Source: a virus. From it: DNA of 20,115 nt. The DNA is taken from positions 1-20,115 of the IMG/VR virus record IMGVR_UViG_3300043775_001295. The stretch is one strand, 5' to 3'. Numbering within the stretch: the stretch's first letter is position 1; the number at the start of each line of letters is the position of its first letter. Below, piece after piece: positions 1,993 through 19,180 of the stretch. The position numbers were made by a program, and so were the translations under genes. The notes beneath the pieces are model-generated. The model ran no database searches and was not told the DNA's origin. It saw only the letters and a list, made by a program, of their open reading frames with translations.

Positions 1993-2043
1993 TGAATATT
2001 AATTTCTAACCACAAAGTAAATAGAAATATTTTTGATAAGACT

Positions 2044-2053
2044 ATATTTATAA
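2044..2053 (+). promoter_or_regulatory. TATTTATA motif, candidate late promoter of tail tube gene
   Basis: The octamer TATTTATA lies at 2045-2052, 34 nt before the tube ATG, inside a 94-nt gap (1993-2086) with no other structure. The same octamer heads five other units in the window. This copy sits inside the longer string TATATTTATAA. Confidence 0.55.
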
Positions 2054-2086
2054 GATATAAAATAAAAAAAACAAAATTATAATAAC

Positions 2087-2575
2087 ATGGCTGATTTACT
2101 AATGAAAATGCCGATTCCTTACGAACCGAAACGTCAGAACCGATTCATCTTGAGGTTTCCTTCAAGCTTGGGAATAAATGAGTGGTTCGTTGAAAGTACG
2201 AAAAGACCATCCATCAAAATTGCTTCAACAGAAATACAATTTTTAAATACATCAACATACGTTGCAGGTAGATTCAACTGGGATGAAATGACGGTTAAGT
2301 TTAGAGACCCAATTGGTCCTTCAGCTTCACAAGCTCTTATGGAGTGGGTTCGTTTACACGCTGAATCAGTAACAGGTCGTATGGGATATGCTGCGGGTTA
2401 TAAGAAAGATATTGACTTGGAGATGTTAGACCCGACAGGTGTTGTTGTTGAAAAGTGGATTCTTTATGGAACCTTCTTAACAAGCGTGGACTTCGGTTCT
2501 TTAGGATATTCAACAGACGCGTTAGCTGATATTACAGCTAGTCTTCGTCCTGACCGTTGTGTGTTAGTGTACTAA
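2087..2575 (+). CDS. Tail tube protein (T4 gp19-like)
   Basis: The product is 162 aa, against 163 aa for T4 gp19. It begins with a short hydrophobic/proline stretch (MADLLMKMPIPYEP), then KRQNRFILRFP, the RFxxxFP-type entry into the beta barrel seen in tube proteins. It continues with a beta-rich body containing FNWDEMTVKFRDPIGPSAS and a C-terminal ITASLRPDRCVLVY strand. These proteins stack as hexameric rings to form the inner tube through which DNA passes. The start is the ATG at 2087, preceded by A/T-rich sequence without a Shine-Dalgarno motif. The gene forms its own unit, with a TATTTATA element upstream and a hairpin terminator downstream. That arrangement fits a protein needed in far more copies than its neighbours. 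Confidence 0.92.
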   Translation: MADLLMKMPIPYEPKRQNRFILRFPSSLGINEWFVESTKRPSIKIASTEIQFLNTSTYVAGRFNWDEMTVKFRDPIGPSASQALMEWVRLHAESVTGRMGYAAGYKKDIDLEMLDPTGVVVEKWILYGTFLTSVDFGSLGYSTDALADITASLRPDRCVLVY

Positions 2576-2577
2576 TA

Positions 2578-2587
2578 CTATTTATAA
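2578..2587 (+). promoter_or_regulatory. TATTTATA motif between tube gene and terminator
   Basis: CTATTTATAA at 2578-2587, starting three bases after the tube stop codon. Unlike the other copies it lies upstream of a terminator (2610-2645), with the next ATG at 2648. A second AT element, TATATTTA, lies at 2603-2610. Confidence 0.5.
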
Positions 2588-2609
2588 AAAATCAATACAA
2601 ACTATATTT

Positions 2610-2645
2610 AACCGTAAAGACATAAACTTTACGGTTATTTTTTTT
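2610..2645 (+). terminator. Rho-independent terminator abutting the next start codon
   Basis: AACCGTAAAG (2610-2619) pairs perfectly over 10 bp with CTTTACGGTT (2627-2636). The loop is 7 nt, and an A followed by eight T (2638-2645) completes the terminator. Only two bases separate the T-run from the ATG at 2648, so the hairpin occupies exactly the position of the ribosome-binding region of the following gene. Confidence 0.88.
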
Positions 2646-2647
2646 AT

Positions 2648-3391
2648 ATGGAAAATCAAACATCAAATTACGCACAACAGAATTTCACATTACCTCATGA
2701 CGTAGTGCCTCTACCATCTCAAGGTACATTTTATAAAAACAAAAAGAAATCTGTTAAGGTAGGTTATTTAACCGCCACAGATGAAAATATCCTGATGGCG
2801 GGTGGAGATGATATATCTGTTAATCTAATCAGAACAAAACTTTATGAACCTGACATTAGGGTTGAAGATTTGTTGGAAGGGGATGTAGAGGCAATTCTTG
2901 TCTTTTTAAGAAACACGGCATTTGGACCTGAATTAAATGTTAATGTTACAGACCCCACAACTAGAAAACAATTTGAAGCGACGGTTGTATTAGATGAGTT
3001 AACTATAAACCAAGGACAGATTCCTTCAGATGACGGAACATTTACAACATTGTTACCAAAGTCAGGTGCTACTATTAAATTAAAACCAATGACTTACGGT
3101 GAAATTATTGAGATAAATAAAATGACTGCTCAATATCCTGTTGGAAGAGTTGCACCAAGAGTTACTTGGAGATTACAAAAACAAATTGTTGAAGTTGACG
3201 GAAATCAAGATAAAGGTGAGATAGCTAAATTTATCGAACAAATGCCGATTATGGATTCTAAATTCATAAGAAGTTTTATGGATGAAAATGAACCAAGATT
3301 AAACATGAACCGAGTAGTAACAACCCCATCAGGAGATAGACTGACAGTTAACGTCGGTTTTGGGGTGGAATTTTTTCGTCCTTTCTTCTGA
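2648..3391 (+). CDS. gp26-like baseplate / tail assembly chaperone candidate (short form)
   Basis: A 247-aa product. Residues ~17-75 (DVVPLPSQGTFY, then VGYLTATDENIL, then LLEGDVEAILVFLR) match the pattern of the T4_baseplate family that includes T4 gp26: a proline-leading LPSxGxxY, a TAxDExIL segment, a DLL.GD turn and a long central helix-strand region. The family is associated with the T4 baseplate hub. Its position directly before the tape measure gene is also where tailed phages encode G/GT-type tail assembly chaperones. The start is the ATG at 2648, two bases after a terminator T-run, with no Shine-Dalgarno sequence. It ends at TGA 3389-3391, but a second frame continues the protein for 50 residues (see 3345-3530). 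T4 gp26 is about 208 aa. Confidence 0.72.
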   Translation: MENQTSNYAQQNFTLPHDVVPLPSQGTFYKNKKKSVKVGYLTATDENILMAGGDDISVNLIRTKLYEPDIRVEDLLEGDVEAILVFLRNTAFGPELNVNVTDPTTRKQFEATVVLDELTINQGQIPSDDGTFTTLLPKSGATIKLKPMTYGEIIEINKMTAQYPVGRVAPRVTWRLQKQIVEVDGNQDKGEIAKFIEQMPIMDSKFIRSFMDENEPRLNMNRVVTTPSGDRLTVNVGFGVEFFRPFF

Positions 3392-3530
3392 TTATAGAAA
3401 AGGACAACTAGATGAATTCTTTTATTTGAATACATTATTAAATATAACATATCAAGATTTTGAAAGAATGCCCATTTTTATGAGAAAATATCTTTTAGAT
3501 AAATGGGTTGAAACTAACAAGAGGGACTAA
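3345..3530 (+). CDS. Frameshifted C-terminal extension of the gp26-like protein (candidate)
   Basis: This frame opens after a TGA at 3342-3344 and runs to the TAA at 3528-3530. It has no ATG near its 5' end; the first ATG is about 30 residues into the useful part. If ribosomes leave the upstream frame at the T6-C run (3371-3377), 50 residues are added from GTC 3378, with the sequence VLSSDYRKGQLDEFFYLN and onward through MPIFMRKYLLDKWVE. The result is a product of 293 aa (+1 shift) or 294 aa (-2 shift) in place of 247. The extension is helical, charged and protein-like. This layout, a long frame plus a short start-less frame just before the tape measure gene, is the classic gpG/gpGT arrangement. 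Alternatives are a one-base assembly error or a genuine inactivating indel in the T-run. Confidence 0.62.
   Translation, partial: QLTSVLGWNFFVLSSDYRKGQLDEFFYLNTLLNITYQDFERMPIFMRKYLLDKWVETNKRD
3371..3377 (+). promoter_or_regulatory. Candidate slippery site (T6-C) for +1 or -2 frameshifting
   Basis: Frame 0 reads GAA TTT TTT CGT here. A Phe-tRNA on TTT (3374-3376) can slip forward to TTC (3375-3377) and resume at GTC 3378. A -2 slip also keeps Phe pairing. Immediately downstream, GTCCTT (3378-3383) can pair with AAGGAC (3400-3405), with TTCT/AGAA inside. That stem starts closer to the slip site than usual stimulatory hairpins. The frame-0 stop lies four codons on. Confidence 0.5.
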
Positions 3531-3543
3531 AAAAATAGTCCTT
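3522..3543 (+). terminator. Short hairpin terminator, possible, overlapping a stop codon
   Basis: GGACTA (3524-3529) pairs with TAGTCC (3536-3541) around six A, extendable by G-T and A-T to 3522/3543. The tail is T-rich (TTCTTCTATTT) but not a pure T-run. The stem includes the stop codon of the frameshift extension. It is weaker than the other terminators here. Confidence 0.55.
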
Positions 3544-3546
3544 CTT

Positions 3547-3556
3547 CTATTTATAA
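3547..3556 (+). promoter_or_regulatory. TATTTATA motif 13 nt before tape measure ATG
   Basis: CTATTTATAA with core 3548-3555, then AGAAAAA. Exactly 13 nt separate the core from the ATG at 3569, the same spacing as the copies at 5439 and 18187. Confidence 0.6.
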
Positions 3557-3568
3557 GAAAAACATTTA

Positions 3569-5410
3569 ATGGCTGACGACAAAGAAAAACCAAGTGAATT
3601 TGGTAAAAAACTAGGTGAAGCGGTTTCTTTCGGTATCGATGAGTTTATTGATGCTGCCTCGGAAATGAAGAAAGCTGCTAACGAATTAGTTGGTGGGTTT
3701 ACTTTATCAAGAGCGAGAGTTGGTGAGATGATGACCGCTGTGAGTGAAGCTGCACCGAGATTAAAAAGACTTGGTGCTGACTTTGAAGGTACATTAAAGG
3801 TAATGAAAGACATTGCCTCAGCGACAGGTAAAAACACCTTAGCGTCGGCGGAAAGTGTTGAAAAATTGTATGCAACCACTCAAGTTATTGGTGGAGAAGT
3901 TAGTAATATTGTTAGTTCATTTACAGATGCCGGCATTCAATTCGGTGTTGTTGGAGGACAGTTGGAGGAATCAGTATTAACTGTTAGAGATTTAGGTTTA
4001 AATGCCAAAGAGGTGATGGGTCAAGTTGTTGATAACACATCAAAACTAAATAAGTTTAATTTTGAGGGAGGTGTTCAAGGATTAACAAAGATGGCAGCAA
4101 GGGCTTCACAGTTCAGGTTTGATATGAGTGAGGCGTTTAATTTAGCTGAAGACGCAATGAATCCCGAAAGAGCTGTTGAATTGGCTTCATCATTCCAAAG
4201 GTTAGGTGTTTCGGTTGGTACACTTGCGGACCCATTCGCATTGATGAATGCGTCCATTAACGACCCAGGAGCATTACAAGAAAGTTTAGTTAAAGCAAGT
4301 AAACAATTTACATACTTCGACGAAAAAACAAAATCATTCAAGATTAATCCTCAAGGAATGTTGACTCTTAGACAGTTGGCTAAGGAAACTGGTATGAGTT
4401 ATGATAACTTATCTAAATCAGGATTAGCCGCAGCGGAATTAGATAAGAGACTGTCACAAATAAGCCCAAGTTTAAACTTCAAAGACGAATCAGACAAACA
4501 GTTTTTAACTAATTTGTCTGAAATGGATGCATCAGGAAATTATGTTGTTAAGATTAGGGATGACCAAGGAATTGATTCAACAAAGAAACTTAGTGAAGTT
4601 ACACAAACAGAATTTGATAAATTAATCAAAGCACAAAAAGAACAACCTCAGTCAATGGAAGACATTGCAAGGGCTTCCATGAAGACGGGTGATATAGTTG
4701 CAAATGATGTTGCATCAATTAAAGAAGCAGTTGTAAGAGGTGCGGTATCGACATCTTTTGTTAAAGACAATATGGAGGCGTTCAGAAAGATTGTAACAAC
4801 TCCGACAGGTTCAATATCAAAAGAAGTAGCTAAAACCGACATATTCAGCACCCAATTTAATACTACCGCCAAAACAATTGAGGGAGCGGTGAATGAGATG
4901 ATAAAAACAGGTGGTAAATCTATGGGTGATATTATGAAAGACCTTGGTAGTAAATTTGGAGAGCAAGGTAAGTCAATTGGAAAAGTTGTTGAAGGACTAA
5001 GTCAAAAAATTTATTCGGACATTAAAGGAAAAAACATGAAAGTTGGTGATTCTGCATTGGGTAAGTTAGCTGCCAGTGCGTTGGAAGGTCTCGAATCATA
5101 CATTGATAAGACATCTGTGGGTAAGGCAGTAGCTGCTCAGAAAGGTGGAACAACGGTTAAAGCCTCACCATCTAAGTCATTATTCTTAGAAGGAACAGAT
5201 TCATTAACAAAAACAGCAAATCAAAACCAAACATTAACATCAACAATCAATAAGACTGTTGACTATAGTGGCACTGTTGTATTTAAAGTTGAAGCTCCCG
5301 CAGGTGTTAGTAAACAATACTTAGAACAATTCTTGAACGAAGAAAAATTCAAAGAAATGGTATACAAATATGTTGAAGAAAAAAACAAACAACTGCAAAA
5401 GACAAAGTAA
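3569..5410 (+). CDS. Tail tape measure protein (T4 gp29-like)
   Basis: The product is 613 aa; T4 gp29 is about 590 aa. It is alpha-helical, rich in Ala/Lys/Ser, and nearly free of Cys and Trp. The N-terminal ~100 residues are amphipathic helix (FGKKLGEAVSFGIDEFIDAA). The middle contains the tape-measure type block LRQLAKETGMSYDNLSK (about residues 265-282). The C-terminus ends in a short beta segment (DYSGTVVFKVEAP, ~575-588) and a charged helix (EEKFKEMVYKYVEEKNKQLQ). Tape measures fill the tube lumen during assembly and fix tail length. Using the usual ~0.15 nm per residue, 613 aa implies a tail near 90 nm, which is an inference and not a measurement. It follows the gp26-like chaperone candidate and precedes the baseplate block, in the order expected for tail modules. 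The start at 3569 is fixed by spacing to the TATTTATA element. Confidence 0.85.
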   Translation: MADDKEKPSEFGKKLGEAVSFGIDEFIDAASEMKKAANELVGGFTLSRARVGEMMTAVSEAAPRLKRLGADFEGTLKVMKDIASATGKNTLASAESVEKLYATTQVIGGEVSNIVSSFTDAGIQFGVVGGQLEESVLTVRDLGLNAKEVMGQVVDNTSKLNKFNFEGGVQGLTKMAARASQFRFDMSEAFNLAEDAMNPERAVELASSFQRLGVSVGTLADPFALMNASINDPGALQESLVKASKQFTYFDEKTKSFKINPQGMLTLRQLAKETGMSYDNLSKSGLAAAELDKRLSQISPSLNFKDESDKQFLTNLSEMDASGNYVVKIRDDQGIDSTKKLSEVTQTEFDKLIKAQKEQPQSMEDIARASMKTGDIVANDVASIKEAVVRGAVSTSFVKDNMEAFRKIVTTPTGSISKEVAKTDIFSTQFNTTAKTIEGAVNEMIKTGGKSMGDIMKDLGSKFGEQGKSIGKVVEGLSQKIYSDIKGKNMKVGDSALGKLAASALEGLESYIDKTSVGKAVAAQKGGTTVKASPSKSLFLEGTDSLTKTANQNQTLTSTINKTVDYSGTVVFKVEAPAGVSKQYLEQFLNEEKFKEMVYKYVEEKNKQLQKTK

Positions 5411-5437
5411 TTTATTATCAGAAAAATACCTATTAAC

Positions 5438-5447
5438 CTATTTATAA
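5438..5447 (+). promoter_or_regulatory. TATTTATA motif 13 nt before the 1689-aa baseplate gene
   Basis: CTATTTATAA with core 5439-5446, followed by TAAAAG. It lies exactly 13 nt from the ATG at 5460. No terminator separates it from the tape measure stop (5410), so readthrough from upstream is also possible. Confidence 0.6.
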
Positions 5448-5459
5448 TAAAAGTATTGA

Positions 5460-8400
5460 ATGGGTAGTCCATTAGATTTAGTTAATTCAGACGCGTTTAG
5501 AAAGAAACTCATTACGAGAAACTTGACCCCTTATGCTAAGGCTCCCAATAGACCTACGCCTCCATTTAATACAGAATACATACAATCAGATACATCAGTT
5601 CAAGACAGTCCTGACCAATTAATAGACGAACCATCGTTTGCTAATAAGTTATATCCATTGAATAAGTGGGGTAATGAGGGAGGGTATCAACAAGCTCCTG
5701 ACCCTGTTGGGAATACAAATACAAAATCCAACGAAGGTGAATATGGTTTCGCAGATGCTAGAATTATAGATGAGGCGGAGCCTGAATCAAAGAATTGGAG
5801 AAAAATTAATGCCTTTGGTAACGGTAGTGAGCAATTATATGACAGTGGTGAATTCGTTGGTAATTTAGAAACAATTGATGCCAACGGTAGTACAAGATAT
5901 TATAACAACCAACCATACCCAAACTTCAATCCGTCAACATACGGACCTGTTTCAATCTTATTAACACCTGACCCTCAAGGTAGTAACGGTTTGTTAAGTT
6001 CTGACTCATATCTTGCTCGTTTAGGTGCTTCAAGATTAAGAAAAGGTTTTGAAGAAAGAATTGCCACAGCGATAGTTCAACAAACTGTAGGTAGAGCCAA
6101 TGCGTTTAACGTAAGAAGTGGTACAGACGTTTTAAATTTAGTTACAGGTAGAGTTCCTTTAATTGAACCTAACTACACGATTACCGCACCATCCAACCCA
6201 ATATTAGCAGCAACAGACTTCGCATTAAGATTAGCGGGTAGTACAATACCAACATCTACAATTCCTGGTTCATACTTCGATGCAAGTATTAATTCAGGTC
6301 AACCAACAACAATACAACAATTAAGTTCTGCGTTCCTTAAAACGTCTGTCGGTAAATCATTCAGTAGATTATTGGGTGGTGACAAGACAGGTTCTCAGTT
6401 ATTCTTAAACAATACAGGTGGTGGTCAAAAGTCGAGATTATTCGGTAACATTGACTACAACAAGTATAAGCCGGATTATCAAAGAACATTATTTGATAGG
6501 GCCGCTGGTGTTTTAGTTGGTTCTACAACAAACAATAGTAACTTCTACGTAGGTTCAACAACATCCGACCCATCAAGAATATTCTCACCAGGAGGTGATA
6601 TACCGGTAAACCAATTCGGACAAGAGGTTCAATCTCCTGTTTATGGTCCAGGTGAACTTGCTGCGTTATACGAAGGTCCTGATTTGGAAAGTAAACTTGG
6701 TGCTAACGGACCTACATATAGTAACGGTGGTGGTGTTGAAGGTGGATTCACTTGGGTATCACCAAAATACAAAGACAATGCTGGTAAGTATGTTGGTATT
6801 GGTGGTGAGATTATTAGACAGGATGAAGATTTTAAACCGTCATCATACAACAAGACCGAGTCGACAAACCAAACATATAGAGAAGGTTCAATTCTTGATG
6901 ACACACAAAGACTAATTAATAGCCAACCTCAAGGAGGAAGAAGATTACAGCACGTTGGTAATGCTATCGACCAAGTTAGTAAGGTCTTCCATGATGGTTA
7001 TAGAGAGATTACGAAGGGTTCTAGAGTTCTTAAGTATATTGGTTCAATTGGACAAGAGGTGGGAACAGAGTACTGTCGTATCTTCACTAAGGACGTTCCT
7101 TATTTACAATACAATGACCTTCAGAAAAGAAACGGTATGACAACCGAAGGTAGAAAGTTTGCTTATTCAGTAATGGATAAGACATGGAATTTAAACATCT
7201 ATCCAAACAAACAAGAAGGTGGTCAAGATTCTACGAATCTTATTGGTACAACCAACAACTCTTATGCCAAGAAGTATATGTTCTCAATTGAGAATTTAGC
7301 TTGGAGAACATCTAACACACCAGGTTTTTCTGTTTCAGATTTGGCAATATGCGAAAGAGGACCTAATGGTGGTAGAGTTATGTGGTTCCCTCCATATGGT
7401 TTAACATTTACTGAAAACGTAAGTGCGAATTGGAAAAATACAGATTTTATTGGTAGACCTGAACCTGTGTATACATACAACAATACAAATAGAACGGGGA
7501 GTTTAACGTGGAAGATAGTTGTTGACCATCCTTCTGTATTAAATTTATTGGTTGATAAAGTTCTTAAAAATGAAACTAACAGACCAAGAATTGATAGTAT
7601 TATTGATTCATTCTTTGCGGGATGTAGAACATATGACTTATATGAGTTAGCCAAAAAGTACTATACAATTAATCCTAATGATTTGTTCCAATTACAACAA
7701 ATGATTTCATCTAAAGAGATGACAAAGGAACAATTAACATATGCGGTTAAAACAATTCAGCCGGGTAATACTGGAGGACAAGGGGAACTAGTTAAACAAA
7801 CTAGCGAACCTATACAAATACCAAACTCTAAAAACATCGGGTTTTATTTTGACAATGATATACCTAAAGAAGGGAATAATGTTACGAATTTTGCTGCACA
7901 ATATGCTGCGTATAGCACCAATGTTTTAAGTGGTGAATATACAAAGAAAAGCACTGCGGCGTTGACACAATCATTTTTTAATTCAGTGGTTGACCCTAAC
8001 TACAAACAAATTCAAAAATTATGTGAAGATATCGGAAACGCGTTAAAAAACAATGAGGGAACCGTTACAATAACAATCGATTCCAGTTGTTCTGCCCCTG
8101 CTAGTACGTCTTACAATGAACAATTATCCAAAAGAAGAATTAACGCAGCAATACAATATTTCACAACAAATACAAATACCGCGACATATTTTAATAGTTC
8201 ACCAAGAAGATTATTTCTTGTAGAAGGTAAAGCGTCTGGTGAAAATGCAAGTGTACAACAATATGACGCACAAGAGAAAAAATTTACAGGAGGGGCTGTG
8301 GTAAGTTGTACTGATGGTGATGCAAACGCTAAAGGTGGTGATACTCTCTCACAAACAAATAAGATTTATTCTACAACAGCAATGGCTTGTAGAAGGGCAT

Positions 8401-10529: not shown

Positions 10530-10852
10530 TGGCGTATCCATATTATAATCGATATAGTGAATTCATCATTAATGGTGAACAAACTGTCGTGCCATTTGTT
10601 AACATTGCTCAAAAGCCTACAGACCAAACATTTATCTACAAAGTTGCAAGAAGTAGATTAGATAAAGTTTCTCAAGAATTTTATAACTCTCCATATTTCA
10701 GTTGGTTGATATTACAAGCAAATCCTCAATTTGGTGGGTTAGAAGATAATATTTATGACGGTGCAGTATTGATTATTCCATTTCCGCTCATAGCTTCTTT
10801 ACAGGATTATAAAGCGGCATTAGAAAATCATTTTTATTATTATGGCAGGTAA
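10529..10852 (+). CDS. Baseplate wedge protein, gp53/LysM-like
   Basis: The product is 107 aa. Residues ~35-86 follow the LysM-like pattern of gp53-type baseplate proteins: FIYKVARSRLDKVSQEFYN, then FSWLILQANPQFG, then a final DGAVLIIPFP, corresponding to YxVxxGDxLxxIAxxxYG, WxxIxxAN and GxxLxIP. T4 gp53 is longer (about 196 aa), so this is a compact version. In contractile tails this protein joins wedges in the inner baseplate; the LysM fold here is structural and does not by itself imply cell-wall binding. The ATG overlaps the previous stop by one base, and its end overlaps the next gene by 11 nt. This indicates translational coupling within the block 5460-18173. No internal promoter is visible. 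Confidence 0.75.
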   Translation: MAYPYYNRYSEFIINGEQTVVPFVNIAQKPTDQTFIYKVARSRLDKVSQEFYNSPYFSWLILQANPQFGGLEDNIYDGAVLIIPFPLIASLQDYKAALENHFYYYGR

Positions 10853-13800
10853 TTTACAAGCTGACAACAGCGGAAACATATTGGTGGATTTTGACTATAA
10901 TAATATTATTGTAGTCGACCCTAACAAAACAATCGACAATTTTGGTAACATTAGAGAAAGATTAGTTGACCATGAGAATTTGGTTATGTATGCCAATCTT
11001 GAAGCTGAGGTTGTACCAAGAACAAAATTAGCGGTGGGCGGAAGTCCTGAAGATAGAATTAGAACTATATCTGTTGCTAAAATTAATTTTCTAAAACCAA
11101 CAAAAAATACCTACTTAGGGACGGGTTATTATGATGAGTTAACTGGACAAAACTCCACTAAGTTTCAGGGTGTTAATCAACCCAAACAAACCTTGAATCA
11201 AACTGCGGATGGTAAAGAGTCTTATAAGGTTAATAGTGTTGCAGACCAAACGAACGTAATTGACACTGGATTACTTGGTATGACAAGTATTAGTATTAGA
11301 ACAAGTACGTCATTTATTCCAAGTGTATCAATCACATTAGAAGATGTACAAGGTAAAGCGTTATTTCAATTGGGTAATAACTCACCGTATGCCGCATTTT
11401 TTAATTTGCCATATTGTCCGTTCTATTTAACACTGAAAGGTTATTATGGACAAGCAATTAGATACCAATTAAATCTTGAAAAATTTAGTGCTTCATTTAA
11501 TAGTTATAGTGGTAACTACATTGTTAACTTAGAATTTAAAGGATATAAATTCAATATCTTAAATGAGATTTCTTTTGGTCATTTACTTGCAGCTCCACAC
11601 ATGTATTCTCAAAGATTTCAAATTACGCAATCTCCGACTGAGGGACAAAATGCCAATGAATCGAAAGACACATCCACAGCTGGTAAATCTGGTATTGGTA
11701 CAACAAGTACAACAAATGTAACATCAGAAATAGTTGCCGAAAGGGGTTATCAAAAAGTTGTTGAAGTTTACAGTGAATACAAGGCCAAAGGATTAGTTTC
11801 AAGAGATTTTCCTGAGTTAACGGTTCAGCAATTGATGAATAAATTGGATAATTTTGAACAAGCTATTGTCAATTCCTATCAAAAGGCTAATGTCGAACCA
11901 CTTACGAATATTCGAAACTATCAACAAAAACTTAAAGATTATTTTGCTAATGTAAGAGGTGCCGACTCTTCTTGGTTCAATACATATTGTGATGTTAGAC
12001 CAATTTATTTAAAAGATAAACCGTCGGTTGTTTATGCATACAAAGCCAATTTAGACCAATCAGCAATATCTGAGGCAAATACTAAACTATCTGACTTAGT
12101 TGCAAGATACAATATTGGATTGGCTGAAAACCCAACATTGGGAAAGGCCGGAACTTCACCAATCGCAAATCCAATTAAGTATGATGATTTTTTCAGAACA
12201 ATTGTTTATTCGAATATTGATTGGATAGAAACAACAAGGTCACAAACAGGTATTATTGCTCCCACAGAAGAAGATGTAAAATTGGTTCAAGACAGACTAT
12301 CTAAATTTTTTAAAGTGTCGTTCGAACTAAATATATTTTCTACTATTCCAATACCCAAAGAAATTGTATTACCTAAATTCTTAGTATTTGAAGGAGACAA
12401 AGGTTTCGATAAAACTCTTGCTAACATGGAGACTCAAGCTAATGCAAAACTTGCTGAGATTGAGGGATTGTTGTCTGCAGACTTGGCTAGAAAGATAGAA
12501 GACAAAGCAACAGGTTTGGGTTTCAGACCTACGGTAAGAAACATTATTGCGGTATTAATGGCCTCTTCAGAGGCGTTTATTAGGTTGTTAGATGATGTTC
12601 ATACAAATGCGTGGAATGTCAAATACGACCCCATCAGAAAGAATGCCATATTAGATAACCCATCATCAGCGCAAAGTTCCGATAGTAGAGATGATGTTAA
12701 AATATCTACAAATGCACAAGAATCGAATCAGGGGTTATCCACATCTCAGATACCGGTGTACCCATGGCCACAATTTTTTGTTGAAACACCTGAAGATAAA
12801 AAAGGAAGATTCCAACTAAAATATATTGCCGACCCATCTGTTGTTAATCTAACAAAAGGTTATTTGTATGAAAAATGGCCTGAGGTTGAATTTGTTGAGG
12901 AGTATATGAAAGGGTTAACACAAAAGTTTCAAAATCCATTAAGTCAACCTTCCTTGGACGCGGAATCAACAACAATAATAAATAATGTAAATGCTATTGA
13001 GTTTCCGAACGTGGGAATTGCTTACGTGAATAAAGAAGAAATAAAGTTCTTTTATGAAATTTGGGAAAGACAATATCTTACATCTTTTTATTCGGGATAT
13101 GTTAGGTTGTTAGGTAACAACAACGGAAGTGATGTGTTTGCTGAATATACAATGGCTGCCGAATCTCAAAACATAAAACTAAGTTTAGGTGCAAGTTCGC
13201 CATACCTTAATTTAAAATTAAAGAATTTAAATTTAAATTCCGCAAACTATGTTAGTACGTTAGAAACAATTTCAAATCAGGGTACAGGTAGAGCTTATCA
13301 AGATTTCATTAGAGATTTTTATGTGACACCGTATATTAAAACTTTGACAGAATCACCATTTTCAATTTTAAAATTGAATGAAACTGGTAAGATTCCTAAA
13401 GAACCTATAGTATCCGAGGCTCTTCAACAAATTGTAACATCTCCTTATAACACACCAATGTTATTGGACACCTATCCGTTTACAGACGGAACATGGTGTT
13501 TCAAAAATATGGATAACTCAGCGGCAAATACAAATGAGTTAGTTTATAATACAAACAAAACGTATAAAATTTACTCGGAAAATAAGGTTATTGCTAACTT
13601 TGATACTTTAACAGATTATACAACAAATAGACCTGTAACAAACTTTTCTTATTTGAGTGTAAGTAATCCATCAGATGGTCGTACCAATGTTAATCTAAAC
13701 GAATTTTACGCCACAAGAGAAACAAAAAACTTTATACCAACCGAAGGATATTGTTATTTCCCATCACCAAACACTACTTTTGAAACTCAAACAACAACCT

Positions 13801-16800
13801 CAATATTAAACACACCGTATTTTATAAATGCAATTCAAAATGGTGTTAATAATTCAAGAAAGTCTGACCCATATCCTTATGTTCAGGCGGCTTATTTGTT
13901 TATTAATTCACTACCATTGGCGTCTACAAGAGAAAGATATAAGACATATTCACAAGGACAAACTACTGACTTGGATTATATTGCTTCAGTATTCAAAAAA
14001 TTTGGTGCGATACATAAAGTACCATATGTTTGGGTTTTAAAAATGGGTTCTATTTGGCACAGATATAAAAAACATGTTGAAACAAATGTAGATATTTTAG
14101 ATTCGTGTTGGAAAGAGTTTGATTATGTTGTTAACTACGACCCAATAACAAATGATATAAACCATAAGTATAGTTACGAAATAACTGTTAATGGAAAAAA
14201 AGAAGAACAAAATATTGTTTTACAAAACGAAACCACAACAAGTATTAAAATACAAAACGGATTTTATCCTAAGTTAGTTAACGACTTCAACGTATTTTAT
14301 AATGGGTATGAATTATATCAAACTTACAGTGACAAAGAAATACAGGCTAGTTTAACTAATGGAATGAAATTATTTTCATTATCACAAGGTTCTATTTCGG
14401 GTGTAAAACAAAAAACAAAAGACCTTATAGTTGAACCTTTCAGTGTGGTTATTCCACATTTGATTGATGATTCATCTAAAAATCAATCTGTTTGTGTACC
14501 TGCCAACAATACTAAAGGTGGTGAGTATTATGTAATACCATCATTTGGAAACACGGTGAATCAAACTGCTACACAATGTATTAATACAATAGGTAATACC
14601 ATTGTTGATTTAACATACAATCAATCAATGTATAACGGAAGTGTTAGATTATTATGGTCAGCACCAAACTACGGATATTTTGATTCTTTATCAATTCGTA
14701 AACCATCACCTGATTCTTACTTGAACTACATTAATCCTGAAAGAGCAATACAGGCACCAATGAGACTACTCTCGGGAAATACGTATTCTAAAATTGAAGA
14801 GATTTTCTCTGTGTTTGATAAATCAATTTTGAATCAATTTGAACAAGAGTTCCTGAATTTTTGTAAACCAATTAGTACGTTAGATGCTGCCCTCTCAGTA
14901 GTTGGAATTGGACAAAGCCCAATTGATATAAACGCCAACTTCAAAAACTTCCAATCGTTTATGAGAATCGCCATGACGGTTCCATCACAAACGACATCAG
15001 AACAAAACGACCAATATTTTCAAAATACAATTAATAGTCAAGCTCAAGTTTTTTGTTCAAACATAAAGAACTTCATGGAGTATGATGTTATCTTAAGAAA
15101 TGGTAACCCCGGAAATTACAATAGAAGAATATTTGGCTCTTTTCTTGGCACCGCAACCGACCCAATTAGATACGAACCATATGTCAAAAATAGTTTACCA
15201 ACATTAAGTGGTGGAATAACATTATCACAAAGTAAAGCAAAGTATCCACTTGAATGGGTGGCATTACAAACAACCGTAGGATTCTCAACAATTGCCAATT
15301 TAGAATATTCAGATAAAGGTTCTTATATTACTGACTTCTTTGTTGATAACAATATGTTATTTAGTGTACCAAACATTAATTTATATTCTGAGTTGATAAA
15401 AATATATGCAACGAGAAAATTATTAAATCCGACAATCACAACAGGAAATTTTAGAACACAAATACAAAACTTCATTTCTAATGGTACTAGCCTACAAAAT
15501 ATAGTTTTAAATAGAACATTAGAATCACTTAGAAAAAACTTAGAAGGGTATTCTCAATTACCTGAAAGAACAATTCAATCAGTTATTGACGGACAACAAT
15601 CTAAAGTTGAAAACTACGAGGTATTCAAAGCTCTTAATGATAAATGGGTTGCTGGTGGTGACTACAAAACAAAAACATTGTTTGAGGATATGATGTTCTT
15701 AGACAGAGCATCAAGAAATATCGGAGATACAATTATCATTGATATATTTGACCTTCAATCAATGTTGGGTAAAAATGCATATAGTGAGTCAATGAGTGTC
15801 TTTACACTTATAAGTGGAATTTTAATCAAAAATAATTTTACGGTAATGCCTCTTCCGGCTTATGTGAATTTTTATAATGTACAAGATGTTTCAGGGATTA
15901 ACATACCACAAAAAACTCAAGGTTCACTTGAGTTTGCGAATAGTATGTGGGGGACATATTTGAATGTGGATTACAGAAACTCAGGTCCAAAAATGATTTG
16001 TTTTTATGCAGGTAAACCATCACAATATTTGGATTTACCAAAAGGTAATTTCAGATTTAGGGACGATAGTTTTGAAATGAAGAGAGCCTCTGAGAATCCA
16101 TTGATTGAAGACCTAAAAGACAAAAAAGATTTTGGACTATCAAACAGATGTGTTGGGTTTAATGTGGAAATAGGAACAAGAAATCAAAATGTGTTTTATT
16201 CATTCTCGGTTTCACAAGATGCGGGAAAGGCTACATCTGAGGCAATTAACGCACAATTGAATATGATTGACCAAGCGTCAGGTAGAAATGTTGCGACTCA
16301 AAATGTTAGTTTGTATAATCTATACAAAAATAGAAGTTATACTTGTACGATACAATGTCTAGGTAATGCCTTATTACAACCAACAATGTATTTCAACTTA
16401 CAACATGTACCCATGTTCAACGGGCCATACATGATTACGGACATTTCACATAATATTACACCAGGTAATTTTGAGACAACTATTACAGGTGTTAGACAAG
16501 GTATTTTTGATTTACCGGCAATTGATAGTTTCTTACAAAGTATTAATCAAAATCTTTTAACCAAGATTGAACAAGCGGTTCTTAATAAAAAAGATGCAAC
16601 GCCAACACCTGGTGCAACAACAGACCAAAGTAAGGCTGCTAAAATTATACAGGAGGCTAAGAGTGAACGAGAGGACCAAAATACTTGTAGTAATAAATTA
16701 AATCCGATATACACAGAACAAGGTTGGGCGTCAACAACAACAACTGCAACACCACTTTCAGAACAACTGTTTAAAGATGCTATTGTTAAAAAGACGTCCG

Positions 16801-18173
16801 ATTCGTATCTTCAAACAATAATATACACTATATGTTATGTTAGAGTACGTCAAGGGACTAAAGATACAAATTCTTTTGTTGGGTTCAATAATAACTTTGC
16901 AACTGTAACCTTGGATATAGATTATGTTAATAACAACATATATTTTAATCAAACACCTAGAACATATTCTTGTGTGAATGTTCAATCAGGAACCGCAACA
17001 AATGTTAAAAATATATTACCTATTGCTAATTTCTCAGATATAAATAAGTTTTTAGATTTTATGATTTCTAAGTTGACTCCGAACATTCAAAGAATAACAC
17101 AAATTGGATTACCAAAATACTATGTTTGTTATTGGCCAACAACAAACTTTACAGAAGAATATTACGAAACTAAAAAGGGTACCGAGTTCAAGGCGGTAAT
17201 AGCTAATTTCGAATCAGCAATTAAGTCCGCAATAAGTTTGGGATTATCTGACTTAACTGGTACTTATGAACCACCACTTACACCAACAATTTCTGCGACC
17301 ATTGGCTCAACTCCAACTGCAACAAGTTCTGTTACACCAACACCTACACCTACTGTGGGTACAATACCATCACCAACACCTACACCAACCTCTTGTGAAA
17401 AACCTGTTATTATTTCATTTACACCAACTTTTGGTGGACAGAATACTATTTTGACTATTACAGGAAAATACTTACAATCGACAACCTCAATCACTATAAA
17501 CAATGTGATTGTAACTAAAGGAATTACTAAATCAAATGACGGAACTCAACTTACGGTCACTGTTCCTCAAAGTCAATCAACAAGTGTACAATCCAATACC
17601 ATACTCGTAAAAACTCAAAATGGCGATGTAACAAGTACAAATAAGTTCACGTATGACCCTGCGTCAAAAACAACAAGTGCTTCTGCTGCACCGTTGAATA
17701 CAACTAACGTAAGTCAACAAACACAAACAGATATCGCAACTAGCACAAGTTCAACAAGACAAGATGGACAAGCGGGTCCTAAAGTTCTATTAGAAACTGA
17801 AACTAATGGATTGAAGGGTATGGAGAAATTGGTTATATCAATCAATCCAGAAACTACTGGTTGGAGATTAAACCCACAAGCAGACTTAAAACTTCTTCTA
17901 GTAACAAATAAAAGAGGACCAAATAATACTCGAATACAAAGTAAAAGTGATATTAAGAAAACTGCATTACCAGGATATGTTACGGATAATTTACAAGAAT
18001 TCGAAATTGATAATGTTAACGTTATTAATATCGCTTTAGATTACTTTACTCAGGAAGAATTAGATGCGGCAGCATATCTTACCGGACAAGTTGATGTTAT
18101 TGCTACTTCACTTAACGGAAACAATCCTCAAACATATTATACAGCGTCATTCGTAATCTATTTTAACACTTAA
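10842..18173 (+). CDS. Giant baseplate hub-type protein with Pro/Thr linker and IPT/TIG domain
   Basis: The product is 2443 aa, the largest gene in the window. About 145-250 form a conserved-looking beta domain (TSISIRTSTSFIPSVSITL, then DVQGKALFQLGNNSPYAAFF, LTLKGYYGQAIRY, FNSYSGNYIVNLEFKGYKF). About 1821-1895 resemble the terminal barrel of hub proteins such as T4 gp27 and late-control D: TCTIQCLGNALLQPTMYF, then FNGPYMITDISHNITPGNF, then TTITGVRQG. About 1973-2107 contain FVGFNNNFATVTLD and PIANFSDINKFLDFM, reminiscent of a glucosaminidase/lysozyme-like fold, but no ESG-type catalytic Glu is visible. About 2145-2185 are a Thr/Pro/Ser linker. About 2186-2276 match an IPT/TIG immunoglobulin-like domain (PVIISFTPTFGGQNTILTIT, then FTY). 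The last ~150 residues are unassigned. The gene overlaps the gp53-like gene by 11 nt. Hub function is inferred; the possibility that it is a fused hub, fibre and adhesin is open. Confidence 0.65.
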   Translation: MAGNLQADNSGNILVDFDYNNIIVVDPNKTIDNFGNIRERLVDHENLVMYANLEAEVVPRTKLAVGGSPEDRIRTISVAKINFLKPTKNTYLGTGYYDELTGQNSTKFQGVNQPKQTLNQTADGKESYKVNSVADQTNVIDTGLLGMTSISIRTSTSFIPSVSITLEDVQGKALFQLGNNSPYAAFFNLPYCPFYLTLKGYYGQAIRYQLNLEKFSASFNSYSGNYIVNLEFKGYKFNILNEISFGHLLAAPHMYSQRFQITQSPTEGQNANESKDTSTAGKSGIGTTSTTNVTSEIVAERGYQKVVEVYSEYKAKGLVSRDFPELTVQQLMNKLDNFEQAIVNSYQKANVEPLTNIRNYQQKLKDYFANVRGADSSWFNTYCDVRPIYLKDKPSVVYAYKANLDQSAISEANTKLSDLVARYNIGLAENPTLGKAGTSPIANPIKYDDFFRTIVYSNIDWIETTRSQTGIIAPTEEDVKLVQDRLSKFFKVSFELNIFSTIPIPKEIVLPKFLVFEGDKGFDKTLANMETQANAKLAEIEGLLSADLARKIEDKATGLGFRPTVRNIIAVLMASSEAFIRLLDDVHTNAWNVKYDPIRKNAILDNPSSAQSSDSRDDVKISTNAQESNQGLSTSQIPVYPWPQFFVETPEDKKGRFQLKYIADPSVVNLTKGYLYEKWPEVEFVEEYMKGLTQKFQNPLSQPSLDAESTTIINNVNAIEFPNVGIAYVNKEEIKFFYEIWERQYLTSFYSGYVRLLGNNNGSDVFAEYTMAAESQNIKLSLGASSPYLNLKLKNLNLNSANYVSTLETISNQGTGRAYQDFIRDFYVTPYIKTLTESPFSILKLNETGKIPKEPIVSEALQQIVTSPYNTPMLLDTYPFTDGTWCFKNMDNSAANTNELVYNTNKTYKIYSENKVIANFDTLTDYTTNRPVTNFSYLSVSNPSDGRTNVNLNEFYATRETKNFIPTEGYCYFPSPNTTFETQTTTSILNTPYFINAIQNGVNNSRKSDPYPYVQAAYLFINSLPLASTRERYKTYSQGQTTDLDYIASVFKKFGAIHKVPYVWVLKMGSIWHRYKKHVETNVDILDSCWKEFDYVVNYDPITNDINHKYSYEITVNGKKEEQNIVLQNETTTSIKIQNGFYPKLVNDFNVFYNGYELYQTYSDKEIQASLTNGMKLFSLSQGSISGVKQKTKDLIVEPFSVVIPHLIDDSSKNQSVCVPANNTKGGEYYVIPSFGNTVNQTATQCINTIGNTIVDLTYNQSMYNGSVRLLWSAPNYGYFDSLSIRKPSPDSYLNYINPERAIQAPMRLLSGNTYSKIEEIFSVFDKSILNQFEQEFLNFCKPISTLDAALSVVGIGQSPIDINANFKNFQSFMRIAMTVPSQTTSEQNDQYFQNTINSQAQVFCSNIKNFMEYDVILRNGNPGNYNRRIFGSFLGTATDPIRYEPYVKNSLPTLSGGITLSQSKAKYPLEWVALQTTVGFSTIANLEYSDKGSYITDFFVDNNMLFSVPNINLYSELIKIYATRKLLNPTITTGNFRTQIQNFISNGTSLQNIVLNRTLESLRKNLEGYSQLPERTIQSVIDGQQSKVENYEVFKALNDKWVAGGDYKTKTLFEDMMFLDRASRNIGDTIIIDIFDLQSMLGKNAYSESMSVFTLISGILIKNNFTVMPLPAYVNFYNVQDVSGINIPQKTQGSLEFANSMWGTYLNVDYRNSGPKMICFYAGKPSQYLDLPKGNFRFRDDSFEMKRASENPLIEDLKDKKDFGLSNRCVGFNVEIGTRNQNVFYSFSVSQDAGKATSEAINAQLNMIDQASGRNVATQNVSLYNLYKNRSYTCTIQCLGNALLQPTMYFNLQHVPMFNGPYMITDISHNITPGNFETTITGVRQGIFDLPAIDSFLQSINQNLLTKIEQAVLNKKDATPTPGATTDQSKAAKIIQEAKSEREDQNTCSNKLNPIYTEQGWASTTTTATPLSEQLFKDAIVKKTSDSYLQTIIYTICYVRVRQGTKDTNSFVGFNNNFATVTLDIDYVNNNIYFNQTPRTYSCVNVQSGTATNVKNILPIANFSDINKFLDFMISKLTPNIQRITQIGLPKYYVCYWPTTNFTEEYYETKKGTEFKAVIANFESAIKSAISLGLSDLTGTYEPPLTPTISATIGSTPTATSSVTPTPTPTVGTIPSPTPTPTSCEKPVIISFTPTFGGQNTILTITGKYLQSTTSITINNVIVTKGITKSNDGTQLTVTVPQSQSTSVQSNTILVKTQNGDVTSTNKFTYDPASKTTSASAAPLNTTNVSQQTQTDIATSTSSTRQDGQAGPKVLLETETNGLKGMEKLVISINPETTGWRLNPQADLKLLLVTNKRGPNNTRIQSKSDIKKTALPGYVTDNLQEFEIDNVNVINIALDYFTQEELDAAAYLTGQVDVIATSLNGNNPQTYYTASFVIYFNT
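17334..17391 (+). repeat. Pro/Thr-coding degenerate tandem repeat
   Basis: Imperfect repeats of ACACCNAC-type units (ACACCAACACCTACACCTAC, then again after a short gap) encode TPTPTPT and SPTPTPT. They form the flexible linker just before the IPT/TIG domain of the 2443-aa protein. Such a tract may vary in length by slippage. Confidence 0.75.
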
Positions 18174-18184
18174 CATACTAACAG

Positions 18185-18195
18185 TATATTTATAA
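18185..18195 (+). promoter_or_regulatory. TATTTATA motif 13 nt before the 74-aa gene
   Basis: The core lies at 18187-18194, followed by ATAAAAG, almost identical to the copy at 5439 (ATAAAAG). It is exactly 13 nt from the ATG at 18208. A small inverted repeat (ATACT/AGTAT, 18175-18187) touches its left edge. Confidence 0.6.
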
Positions 18196-18207
18196 TAAAA
18201 GATTTTT

Positions 18208-18432
18208 ATGGACTTAAAATCAGCATTGAACAATTACCTTGGAAAATCAGTGAGATATTCTGAGGAAGATAACGGAGACGGAAGTAAACAAGTTTGTGAC
18301 TTGGATACTGGAGACTGTTATACGGTAAGAGAAAGAGATGGTCTAATCGAAAGAGCCGGTCATCAGACAACCGCTAATAGAAAAGTTAGAGTTGAAACAG
18401 CTAACGGAATAAAACAACTTTTAAACGGATAA
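18208..18432 (+). CDS. Small hypothetical protein (74 aa)
   Basis: I do not recognise this gene. It encodes a 74-aa, charged, soluble-looking protein with no membrane segment. Notable points are an amphipathic N-terminus (MDLKSALNNYLGKSVRY), two cysteines six residues apart in VCDLDTGDCYTV (about residues 29-40), the turn RERDGLIER, and a C-terminal ETANGIKQLL segment. Coding is supported by its own ATG at fixed spacing from a TATTTATA element and by only 4 nt separating it from the next gene, which makes the two an operon. The two cysteines could form a disulfide or a metal site, but a C-x6-C pair alone proves neither. Confidence 0.7.
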   Translation: MDLKSALNNYLGKSVRYSEEDNGDGSKQVCDLDTGDCYTVRERDGLIERAGHQTTANRKVRVETANGIKQLLNG

Positions 18433-18436
18433 CAAC

Positions 18437-19102
18437 ATGAGCTTAGATAGAAAAATCATCAGCGAAATTGAAAGATATAGAAATATCAACAAATACATAA
18501 TGGAGCAAGATGCTACAGTACCACCACCGGCTGAAGACTTAGGTGCTGATTTAGGTGCAGTAGCACCACCACCACCTGCAGACCCTGCAGCGGCGGCACC
18601 TCCACCACCAGAGGCACCAGCAACAGCTGAACCAATAGACGTTGCAAATGACCCTGATGTTGAAAAGATTAACGATGACGGTGAGTCAGAAGAAAAGAAA
18701 GATGATGAGGACGAAAGCTCAGAAGAGTTGGATGTAACTGAATTAGTTGATTCTCAAAAAAACATTGAGAAAAAACAAGAAGATTATTTTGAAAACTTGT
18801 TTGGACAATTAAATAAGTTAGAATCAAGATTAGGTGAGATGGACCAAATAATGTCTAAATTGAACACTCTTGAAGCTAAGATTGAAAAATACAGAGAAAA
18901 AACTCCACAAGAAAAATTAGAGTTAAGGTCGTATGATTCATATCCTTTCAATCAAAAACTATCTGATTTCTTTGACGATAAGAAAGAAGAAATGGAGTTA
19001 ACAGGTAAGAAAGATTATGTGTTAACATCAGACGAAGTAACTGACATTAATGCAAATGATATCAAAAAATCATTCCAACCAACAGAGGATGATTTAATGT
19101 AA
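18437..19102 (+). CDS. Pro/Ala-rich acidic coiled-coil protein, possibly prohead/internal structural
   Basis: The product is 221 aa and I cannot assign a family. It has four parts. Residues 1-24 are a basic amphipathic segment, MSLDRKIISEIERYRNI then NKYIMEQ. Residues ~28-65 form a PPPP/AAAA-rich linker. Residues ~70-105 are strongly acidic (EEKKDDEDESSEELD). Residues ~108-160 form a predicted coiled coil (QLNKLESRLGEMDQIMSKLN and following heptads), and a compact C-terminal tail ends in EDDLM. The first segment ends in IME, which fits the [L/I]xE cleavage rule of T4 gp21 prohead protease, so it could be a removable capsid-targeting sequence. This is a hypothesis. The acidic and coiled-coil content would also fit a core or scaffold protein. 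It is the last gene of its unit, closed by a terminator. Confidence 0.65.
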   Translation: MSLDRKIISEIERYRNINKYIMEQDATVPPPAEDLGADLGAVAPPPPADPAAAAPPPPEAPATAEPIDVANDPDVEKINDDGESEEKKDDEDESSEELDVTELVDSQKNIEKKQEDYFENLFGQLNKLESRLGEMDQIMSKLNTLEAKIEKYREKTPQEKLELRSYDSYPFNQKLSDFFDDKKEEMELTGKKDYVLTSDEVTDINANDIKKSFQPTEDDLM

Positions 19103-19122
19103 TACAGAAAAGAAATATTGAG

Positions 19123-19149
19123 AAGGTCATCGAAAGATGACCTTTTTTT
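19123..19149 (+). terminator. Rho-independent terminator with GAAA tetraloop
   Basis: AAGGTCATC (19123-19131) and GATGACCTT (19136-19144) form a perfect 9-bp stem closed by a GAAA (GNRA) loop. Seven T (19143-19149) follow. It closes the 74-aa/221-aa unit and insulates the ssDNA-binding protein gene. Confidence 0.92.
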
Positions 19150-19151
19150 AT

Positions 19152-19180
19152 TTGACATAGAACCTATTTATACCTATATT
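19152..19180 (+). promoter_or_regulatory. Sigma70-like / Bacteroidota-type promoter of the ssDNA-binding protein gene
   Basis: TTGACA (19152-19157) is separated by 17 nt from TATATT (19175-19180), a near-consensus housekeeping promoter. The same bases also read TTTG (19151-19154), 20 nt, TATATTTA (19175-19182), close to the Bacteroidota consensus TTTG/TAnnTTTG. The leader to the ATG at 19218 would be about 30 nt. It would allow early expression by the unmodified host polymerase. Confidence 0.6.
19164..19172 (+). promoter_or_regulatory. TATTTATA motif within the ssDNA-binding protein promoter region
   Basis: TATTTATA at 19165-19172 sits inside the spacer of the sigma70-like promoter and 45 nt before the ATG. 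It suggests tandem early and late control of the same gene. Confidence 0.5.

Follow-up and report, generated by a model that had tools for sequence, protein, structure and literature searches.

Analysis of the 20,115-base window studied here, which is the entire IMG/VR virus record IMGVR_UViG_3300043775_001295, revealed an eight-base element, TATTTATA, that recurs between genes of the same direction and probably marks late promoters. We interpret TATTTAT(A/T) as a -10-type core shared by late promoters in one group of T4-like phages, probably infecting Bacteroidetes, that would be read by a sigma factor of the phages' own and would give messages with leaders of about 9 nucleotides (nt), with longer leaders or with none.

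The six + strand copies of TATTTATA in the window, at 2045, 2579, 3548, 5439, 18187 and 19165, all lie in intergenic gaps, as the first-pass annotation of this DNA had it, and each time between same-direction genes. Its distance of 13 nt from the octamer to the ATG of the putative tape measure gene, the 1689-amino-acid (aa) gene and the 74-aa gene, and the bases it quoted after these boxes, were confirmed as well (13 nt at 3548, 5439 and 18187; 34 nt at 2045, 61 nt at 2579 and 45 nt at 19165). Two further copies, at 1984 and 17039, lie on the - strand, antisense inside genes. The sites and the elements that accompany them are the following:

2045–2052, + strand: TATTTATA, putative late-promoter box of the tail-tube unit; predicted +1 at A2057, with the ATG at 2087, 34 nt from the octamer
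2579–2586, + strand: TATTTATA octamer ahead of the baseplate gene, a weak candidate with a terminator-like hairpin between octamer and ATG
2609–2637, + strand: terminator-like hairpin followed by a U-run up to the ATG at 2648 (z -4.2; in the 30 orthologues displayed)
3519–3546, + strand: terminator-like hairpin immediately 5' of the 3548 box (z -3.6)
3548–3555, + strand: TATTTATA, putative late-promoter box of the tape-measure unit; predicted +1 at A3560, leader of 9 nt
5439–5446, + strand: TATTTATA, putative late-promoter box of the 1689-aa gene; predicted +1 at A5451, leader of 9 nt
18187–18194, + strand: TATTTATA, putative late-promoter box of the 74-aa gene; predicted +1 at A18199, leader of 9 nt
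19152–19180, + strand: TTGACA-N17-TATATT, a host-type promoter-like element before the gp32 gene, read from the sequence (similar layout in the three orthologues displayed)
19165–19172, + strand: TATTTATA octamer in the spacer of that element; probably no conserved late promoter

Within the window, the 60 nt upstream of called genes hold five copies of TATTTATA (0.4 expected) and none of its reverse complement TATAAATA (0.3 expected). The count on both strands of the whole window is only modestly unusual (8 copies for 2.86 expected, a number reached in 1 of 100 shuffles) and taken alone would leave room for an octamer produced by chance or by the AT-rich composition of the gaps. Such an origin is, however, hardly credible in view of the related phages, where the enrichment over a Markov expectation in five genomes, the direction of the copies and their conservation among orthologues all contradict it. 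No near match to the window was found in the phage collection. Relatives of the tail tube number at least 599 in IMG/VR, and the best 80 were analysed as tail-tube loci. Among named phages, Microcystis phage Mel-JY01 and Flavobacterium phage immuto gave the best sheath matches. Whole records were read for four of eleven larger records (G001, 165.5 kb; G002, 155.8 kb; G004, 129.6 kb; G006, 134.6 kb) and for immuto (NC_055915.1, 160.4 kb), with genes called as ATG-only open reading frames (ORFs). In the 60 nt upstream of these genes TATTTATA was observed 24 times in G001 (4.0 expected from a second-order Markov model), 15 times in G002 (1.4), 16 in G004 (1.7), 15 in G006 (2.1) and 23 in immuto (2.4). 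Among upstream 8-mers it takes first place in G001, G002 and G004 and third place in G006; in immuto, where a different motif predominates, it comes seventh. TATAAATA is not enriched in the same regions (5 for 2.9 expected, 2 for 1.2, 3 for 2.2, 2 for 1.6 and 5 for 3.5, in the same order of genomes), and the idea of a T4 promoter placed in reverse was rejected on this ground. Plain AT-richness was likewise rejected by the Markov and same-composition controls, the latter consisting of the 20 remaining heptamers that five T and two A can form.

Direction is equally marked. An octamer as frequent inside genes as in gaps, or found in either orientation, had been named in advance as the outcome that would speak against a promoter, and this outcome did not occur in the genome-wide scan: same-direction gaps of the five genomes and Mel-JY01 contain 114 sense and 17 antisense copies, with 19 more in divergent gaps and 5 in convergent gaps, so that these six records hold 155 copies in 68 kb of gaps vs 98 in 868 kb of called genes. 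Across the 80 tail-tube loci, 157 octamers head genes in sense, 50 are antisense in gaps and 54 fall inside genes.

A closer inspection of the upstream regions showed that the conserved core is TATTTAT followed by a loosely specified eighth base. In the 430 upstreams of the five genomes this base is A in 102 cases (12.8 expected), T in 49 (11.6), C in 12 (2.7) and G in 6 (1.6). Most single changes elsewhere in the octamer are not over-represented, and a few are so slightly (TATTTGTA, 10 for 3.1 expected; TATTGATA, 7 for 2.4; TATTAATA, 14 for 7.8). A T directly precedes the box in 11% of contexts. No column further upstream exceeds 0.35 bits with the same letters common to the genomes, and a shared -35 element was therefore not seen. 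The comparison of orthologues, made on distinct 90-nt upstreams, found TATTTAT before the tube gene in 60/60 (TATTTATA itself in 44/60), before the 1689-aa gene in 41/41 (octamer in 26/41) and before the 74-aa gene in 3/3, and TATTTATA before the tape measure gene in 24/24; the 304-aa gene gave no row in this comparison. The arrangement TATATTT, one of the same-composition controls, is also frequent in the tube upstreams (50/60), where it overlaps the box.

The proposal that all six sites are boxes at the heads of units holds for these four conserved sites and is doubtful for the other two. Baseplate upstreams (site 2579) carry the 7-mer in 21/62 and the octamer in 12/62, fewer than TATATTT (51/62), and the feature conserved there is the hairpin with its U-run up to the ATG rather than the box; the hairpin is preceded by TATATTTAACCG (window 2602–2650). 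At the gp32 gene (site 19165) TATTTAT is present in 1/3 upstreams, and TTGACA-N17-TATATT or a similar element is conserved, the corresponding region of G002 reading TTGACA-N17-TATAAT. Sites 2579 and 19165 are thus probably no conserved late promoters. The 13-nt spacing, in turn, is one value within a range and not fixed, since in relatives it takes values of 6 and 13–22 nt at the tape measure gene and of 12–21 nt at the 1689-aa gene.

The absence of the box from genes inside operons, where TATTTAT precedes 0/28, 0/29 and 0/3 control genes, bears on a second explanation, by which the box is a ribosome-binding element that takes the place of Shine-Dalgarno (SD) sequences. SD-like sequences precede 4–8% of called starts in the five genomes, a share not above that of the control and far from the 49% of T4 and the 29% of Mel-JY01, and many boxes lie close to an ATG, as such an element would. 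Its distance to the ATG is nevertheless bimodal and reaches tens of nt, the tape-measure box follows directly upon a terminator-like hairpin, and 65 of the 87 gaps of immuto lack the box, so that a role in ribosome binding appears very improbable. The variant put forward in the first-pass annotation, a joint promoter and translation signal that replaces SD, was abandoned for related reasons: operon-internal genes lack the box and some boxes imply leaderless mRNAs. The same hairpin, placed before the 3548 box, also argues against an RNA processing site from which leaders would be produced by cleavage of longer transcripts. Cleavage would yield equally well-defined 5' ends near the ATG, but the likeness of the box to TATAAATA would then be a coincidence, and we give this explanation marginally less credit still than ribosome binding.

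The position of the start site is suggested by the bases that follow the box. Among the 197 longer-leader contexts, of which many are orthologous, A occupies index 12, five bases past the octamer, in 83%, with a gradient to either side, and this preferred A is the probable transcription start site. The first T of a -10 hexamer stands at -12, which would place index 12 at +1. Distances to the start codon agree with this assignment. For the 178 TATTTAT boxes that lie in gaps of the five genomes at most 80 nt from a called ATG, the distance from the end of the 7-mer is 0–3 nt in 2 cases, 4–7 nt in 50, 8–9 nt in 2, 10–12 nt in 7, 13–17 nt in 47, 18–23 nt in 24 and greater in 46; the 20 same-letter control heptamers gave 75, 61, 35, 47, 65, 56 and 369 of 708 in the same bins (Fisher's test, 3e-6 for 4–7 vs 8–9 nt and 2e-5 for 8–11 vs 12–23 nt). 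ATGs are therefore scarce right after the box, frequent at the presumed start, scarce again over the next few positions and frequent from 13 nt on. Expressed from the octamer, two classes of 3–6 nt and of at least 12 nt are separated by an interval that holds 9 of the 178 boxes. The same pattern appears when all loci are taken and deduplicated by context, with no ATG at 7–8 nt, and 30 gene families have spacings of 3–6 nt and 98 of 7 nt or more.

Short spacings of this kind would imply leaderless mRNAs. Up to about a quarter of the boxes may have the called ATG at the predicted start site itself, and 50 of 178 is an upper estimate, because some of the short distances arise from miscalled starts (a G004 protein called as MSKMTFG begins MTFG in G001 and G006). 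At the gene adjacent to the candidate sigma gene described below, TATTTAT stands exactly 4 nt from the ATG in 68 of the 69 starts recognised among 80 loci; this start is real, judging by the mostly synonymous variation of the first codons. Eight families (20 members, from G001, G002, G004 and G006, none from immuto) keep a spacing of 4–7 nt in at least two genomes with aligned starts (16 pairs), and 10 co-aligned pairs have the short spacing in one genome and the long one in the other. The very short leaders anticipated by the first-pass annotation are supported at three window sites, with a predicted length of 9 nt, and some boxes would imply no leader at all. Several box-led ORFs (in G001, G002, G004 and immuto) begin with a similar short peptide resembling MxxLISESQLxxIL.E. 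We take such peptides to recall the capsid-targeting sequences of T4, and the proteins are possibly encapsidated.

The association with late genes was evaluated in immuto, whose late regions were assigned by us from the annotation. The boxes head the terminase, portal, sheath, tube, baseplate and tape-measure genes, and among gaps of at least 20 nt the octamer is found in 16 of 26 late ones vs 6 of 61 elsewhere (Fisher p 1.4e-6). Expression of these units late in infection is likely. Immuto also has a second strong upstream motif, reconstructed from overlapping 8-mers as approximately TATTTAGGTATCAATAAT. Its enrichment exceeds that of the late box, and it is possibly an early promoter or a regulatory site.

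A candidate for the cognate sigma factor was located in the relatives. A search with phrog_234, the PHROG of T4 gp55, gave one weak match each in G001, G003, G004, G006 and immuto (E 0.001–0.008). These five matches form one gene family of about 250 aa (hhalign E 1.5e-17 between the G001 type and the immuto type), which in immuto corresponds to KNV73_gp118, annotated as hypothetical; the combined family profile recovers the same five records at E < 1e-90, partly by construction. Alignments of the family were built from 30 of 80 loci in one set (L132 was removed because of an in-frame stop) and from 28 of 80 loci in another set plus immuto. Pfam Sigma70_r2 was recognised in 17 of 31 family members (best E 0.011), and a homologue of the same family accompanies the TATTTATA signal of Mel-JY01 (PP395634.1). 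The predicted structure (predicted local distance difference test score, pLDDT, 72.6; predicted template modelling score, pTM, 0.43) appears to contain the sigma-70 region 2 fold. In both PDB structure lists all 50 matches displayed were sigma factors or RNA polymerase-sigma complexes, and region 2 superposes on 5h6x_A and 7ckq_F over 90–93 residues (Z 9.2–9.3, root-mean-square deviation (rmsd) 2.5–2.7). The label of T4 gp55 is absent among the matches displayed in both lists, which excludes nothing. Modeled alone (pLDDT 81.7, pTM 0.71), the C-terminal domain has four sigma C-terminal regions as its top matches, all of them weak (Z 5.2–5.7, rmsd 3.3–4.1), with other proteins next at Z 5.1 and Foldseek E values above 1. 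A sequence profile search of the PDB with the sigma alignment gave two weak matches to other proteins, so that the assignment rests on the fold, the weak PHROG and hhalign signal and conservation. The other late-sigma family looked for, phrog_12791, was found in 0 of 8 records. In four loci (L126–L129) the sigma gene comes directly after an ORF of 268–279 aa that looks like a glycosyltransferase by eye.

Several observations weigh against a late promoter read by this sigma. Six gaps of immuto outside the late regions have the box, and the exact octamer is absent from 10 of the 26 late gaps, the one of the major capsid gene included. The sigma gene lies outside the 20-kb window and was found in relatives; the phrog_234 search was also positive in 7 of 14 control genomes and gave no match in G002, G005 and G007 (3 of 8 records, which may be fragments). 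Kinship to gp55 is weak (hhalign against six T4-type gp55, E 1.3e-4 over 118 columns, probability 53%), Foldseek returned no match at E <= 0.001 (best 3.4e-3, probability 0.98) and Z values under about 13 can reflect a common arrangement in helical models. The distant phage LR756508 encodes a sigma homologue of 40% identity and has no upstream TATTTATA in the 100 of its 484 kb examined (0.3 expected), and as a prediction the pairing of sigma and box failed there. Finally, the gp45 clamp was not detected (phrog_223, 0/8; PF02916, 0/6). The sensitivity of the clamp search is itself in doubt, as it had no T4 positive control and found no clamp either in Mel-JY01, whose annotation includes a clamp-loader gene. 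All of the 8 records except immuto gave weak matches to the clamp-loader family phrog_168, mostly in frames of 586–677 aa that may be other AAA proteins, and this family was positive in 14 of 14 control genomes. DNA polymerase is of family B in G001, G003, G004, G006 and Mel-JY01 and of family A in immuto, a mixture that speaks neither for nor against a clamp. Of the T4-type partners suggested by the first-pass annotation, a weakly gp55-like sigma gene was found in relatives and gp45 was not.

The main competitor is a promoter for the host sigma rather than for a phage one. These phages have probable Bacteroidetes hosts: immuto infects Flavobacterium, and two of the five genome-collection loci with a tube relative come from Bacteroidales metagenome-assembled genomes, the other three being labelled otherwise. 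The primary-sigma promoter consensus of Bacteroidetes is TTG / TAnnTTTG. Paired TTG-N-TAnnTTTG elements, whose counts carry no chance control, precede other genes in G001, G004 and G002 and one gene in G006 (gp32), and are not found in immuto, where upstreams have TAnnTTTG 0 times in sense and 6 in antisense; the host polymerase is therefore probably used for some genes. TATTTATA, however, does not fit TAnnTTTG and has no shared -33 element, and the late-region bias and the sigma-like gene of the relatives also disfavor host recognition, which we consider unlikely, though less so than the other alternatives. The TATTTAT boxes lack both the -7 box and the -33 element of the Bacteroidetes primary-sigma promoters that occur before other genes of some of the same phages. 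Mel-JY01 has TTG-N-TAnnTTTG, again as uncontrolled counts, at gene heads in 20 of 21 gap matches; the cyanobacterial host given for it is doubtful, and the real one may be a Bacteroidetes that was present in the culture. This phage also encodes an annotated ribosomal protein S21.

The preferred reading, recognition by a phage sigma, has a close known counterpart in the T4 late promoter (TATAAATA, gp55). As in T4, an AT-rich octamer is the sole conserved element, stands in sense before structural genes and probably goes with a phage-encoded sigma; the orientation before late genes (a bias measured in immuto) and the lack of a -35 element are observed directly. The differences are also clear. 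TATTTAT(A/T) is 6/8 identical to TATAAATA, the candidate sigma is longer than gp55 (about 250 vs 185 aa) and may have a region 4, gp45 was not detected in the records searched, SD sequences are not enriched and a short-spacing, apparently leaderless class exists. In a 75-kb T4 control, TATAAATA was observed upstream 10 times (1.0 expected), with 11 of 11 gap copies at gene heads, and TATTTATA was also present (6 for 0.9 expected; 6 at heads, 5 antisense). Two 50-kb controls were of little information (Delftia phage PhiW-14, none of TATTTATA and TATAAATA; S-RIM8, TATAAATA 2 for 0.2 expected). In cyanophages, NATAAATA is likewise a diverged octamer upstream of late genes of T4-like phages with a gp55 homologue, relaxed at the first base only (PMC2984593). 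That study describes homologues of g33 and g45 in every cyanomyovirus, whereas gp45 was not found here (gp33 was not searched for). The box would work like a T4 late promoter, with a sequence that is neither TATAAATA nor NATAAATA. The first-pass suggestion of a diverged late promoter is supported by the sense orientation, the late units and the sigma-like gene of relatives, and not in its form of a reversed promoter, since direct alignment to TATAAATA leaves an AA to TT change at positions 4–5. The best explanation of the octamer is a late-promoter core that moved away from the T4 type along with the sigma that reads it. A literature search of open-access texts, largely at the level of titles and abstracts, returned no phage late promoter of the type TATTTATA and no late sigma of a Bacteroidetes phage.

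Two further reports bear on the leaderless class. Leaderless genes are described as predictable from a TA-like signal about 10 bp upstream of the start, a -10-type box spaced, like the short class here, to put the start codon at the transcription start; they were detected in 1 of 37 Bacteroidetes/Chlorobi genomes and made up 2.4% of its genes, vs up to 50 of 178 boxes here with a phage-specific box (PMC3160421). Flavobacterium johnsoniae is described as making no use of SD, with A at -3, and as giving 87% of its predicted transcripts a leader of more than 10 nt (PMC6847099).

In the mechanism that we propose, a phage sigma of about 250 aa, with region 2 and possibly region 4, would take over the host RNA polymerase and recognise the box without a -35 element. 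Transcription would begin at the A about five bases past the octamer, on leaders of about 9 nt or longer that would be A-rich and free of SD sequences, or without any leader. A narrower version, put forward tentatively and with the balance somewhat against it, holds that a self-sufficient two-domain sigma acts on the core TATTTAT without the T4 clamp and co-activator, and that messages are either leaderless or have leaders of at least about 9 nt, intermediates being avoided. If this were true, Bacteroidetes ribosomes would routinely initiate on leaderless phage mRNAs. The gap in spacing itself yields a sharp, testable rule for ribosomes that do not use SD: no leader, or one of at least about 9 nt. 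The box would provide a simple marker of late units and of likely transcription starts in a large and mostly uncultured group, and with KNV73_gp118 of immuto a cultured phage offers a candidate for the late sigma.

All recognised genes of the window lie on the + strand and encode a tail sheath (lacking its 5' end), a tail tube, a T4-type baseplate protein, a putative tape measure, a protein that matches a baseplate wedge and a gp32-like single-strand DNA-binding protein. Those that concern the sites above are:

2087–2575, + strand: tail tube gene (phrog_4542, E 5e-25)
2648–3391, + strand: baseplate gene (T4_baseplate, Pfam PF12322, E 8e-7)
3569–5410, + strand: putative tape measure gene, 613 aa (Pfam PF10145, E 2e-4, under the curated cut-off; position)
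5460–10529, + strand: 1689-aa gene (ORF)
18208–18432, + strand: 74-aa gene (ORF)
19218–20078, + strand: gp32-like single-strand DNA-binding protein gene (Pfam PF08804, E 2.7e-10)

At E 0.001 the 1689-aa protein matches nothing in Pfam or PHROG, and a second very large protein of 2443 aa (10842–18173) has no match in PHROG, the only one of the two searched with it. Among the larger records, G002 seems from its octamer positions to run across the junction of the two ends of the 317-kb record G003, which would make G003 a jumbo genome that is circular or circularly permuted.

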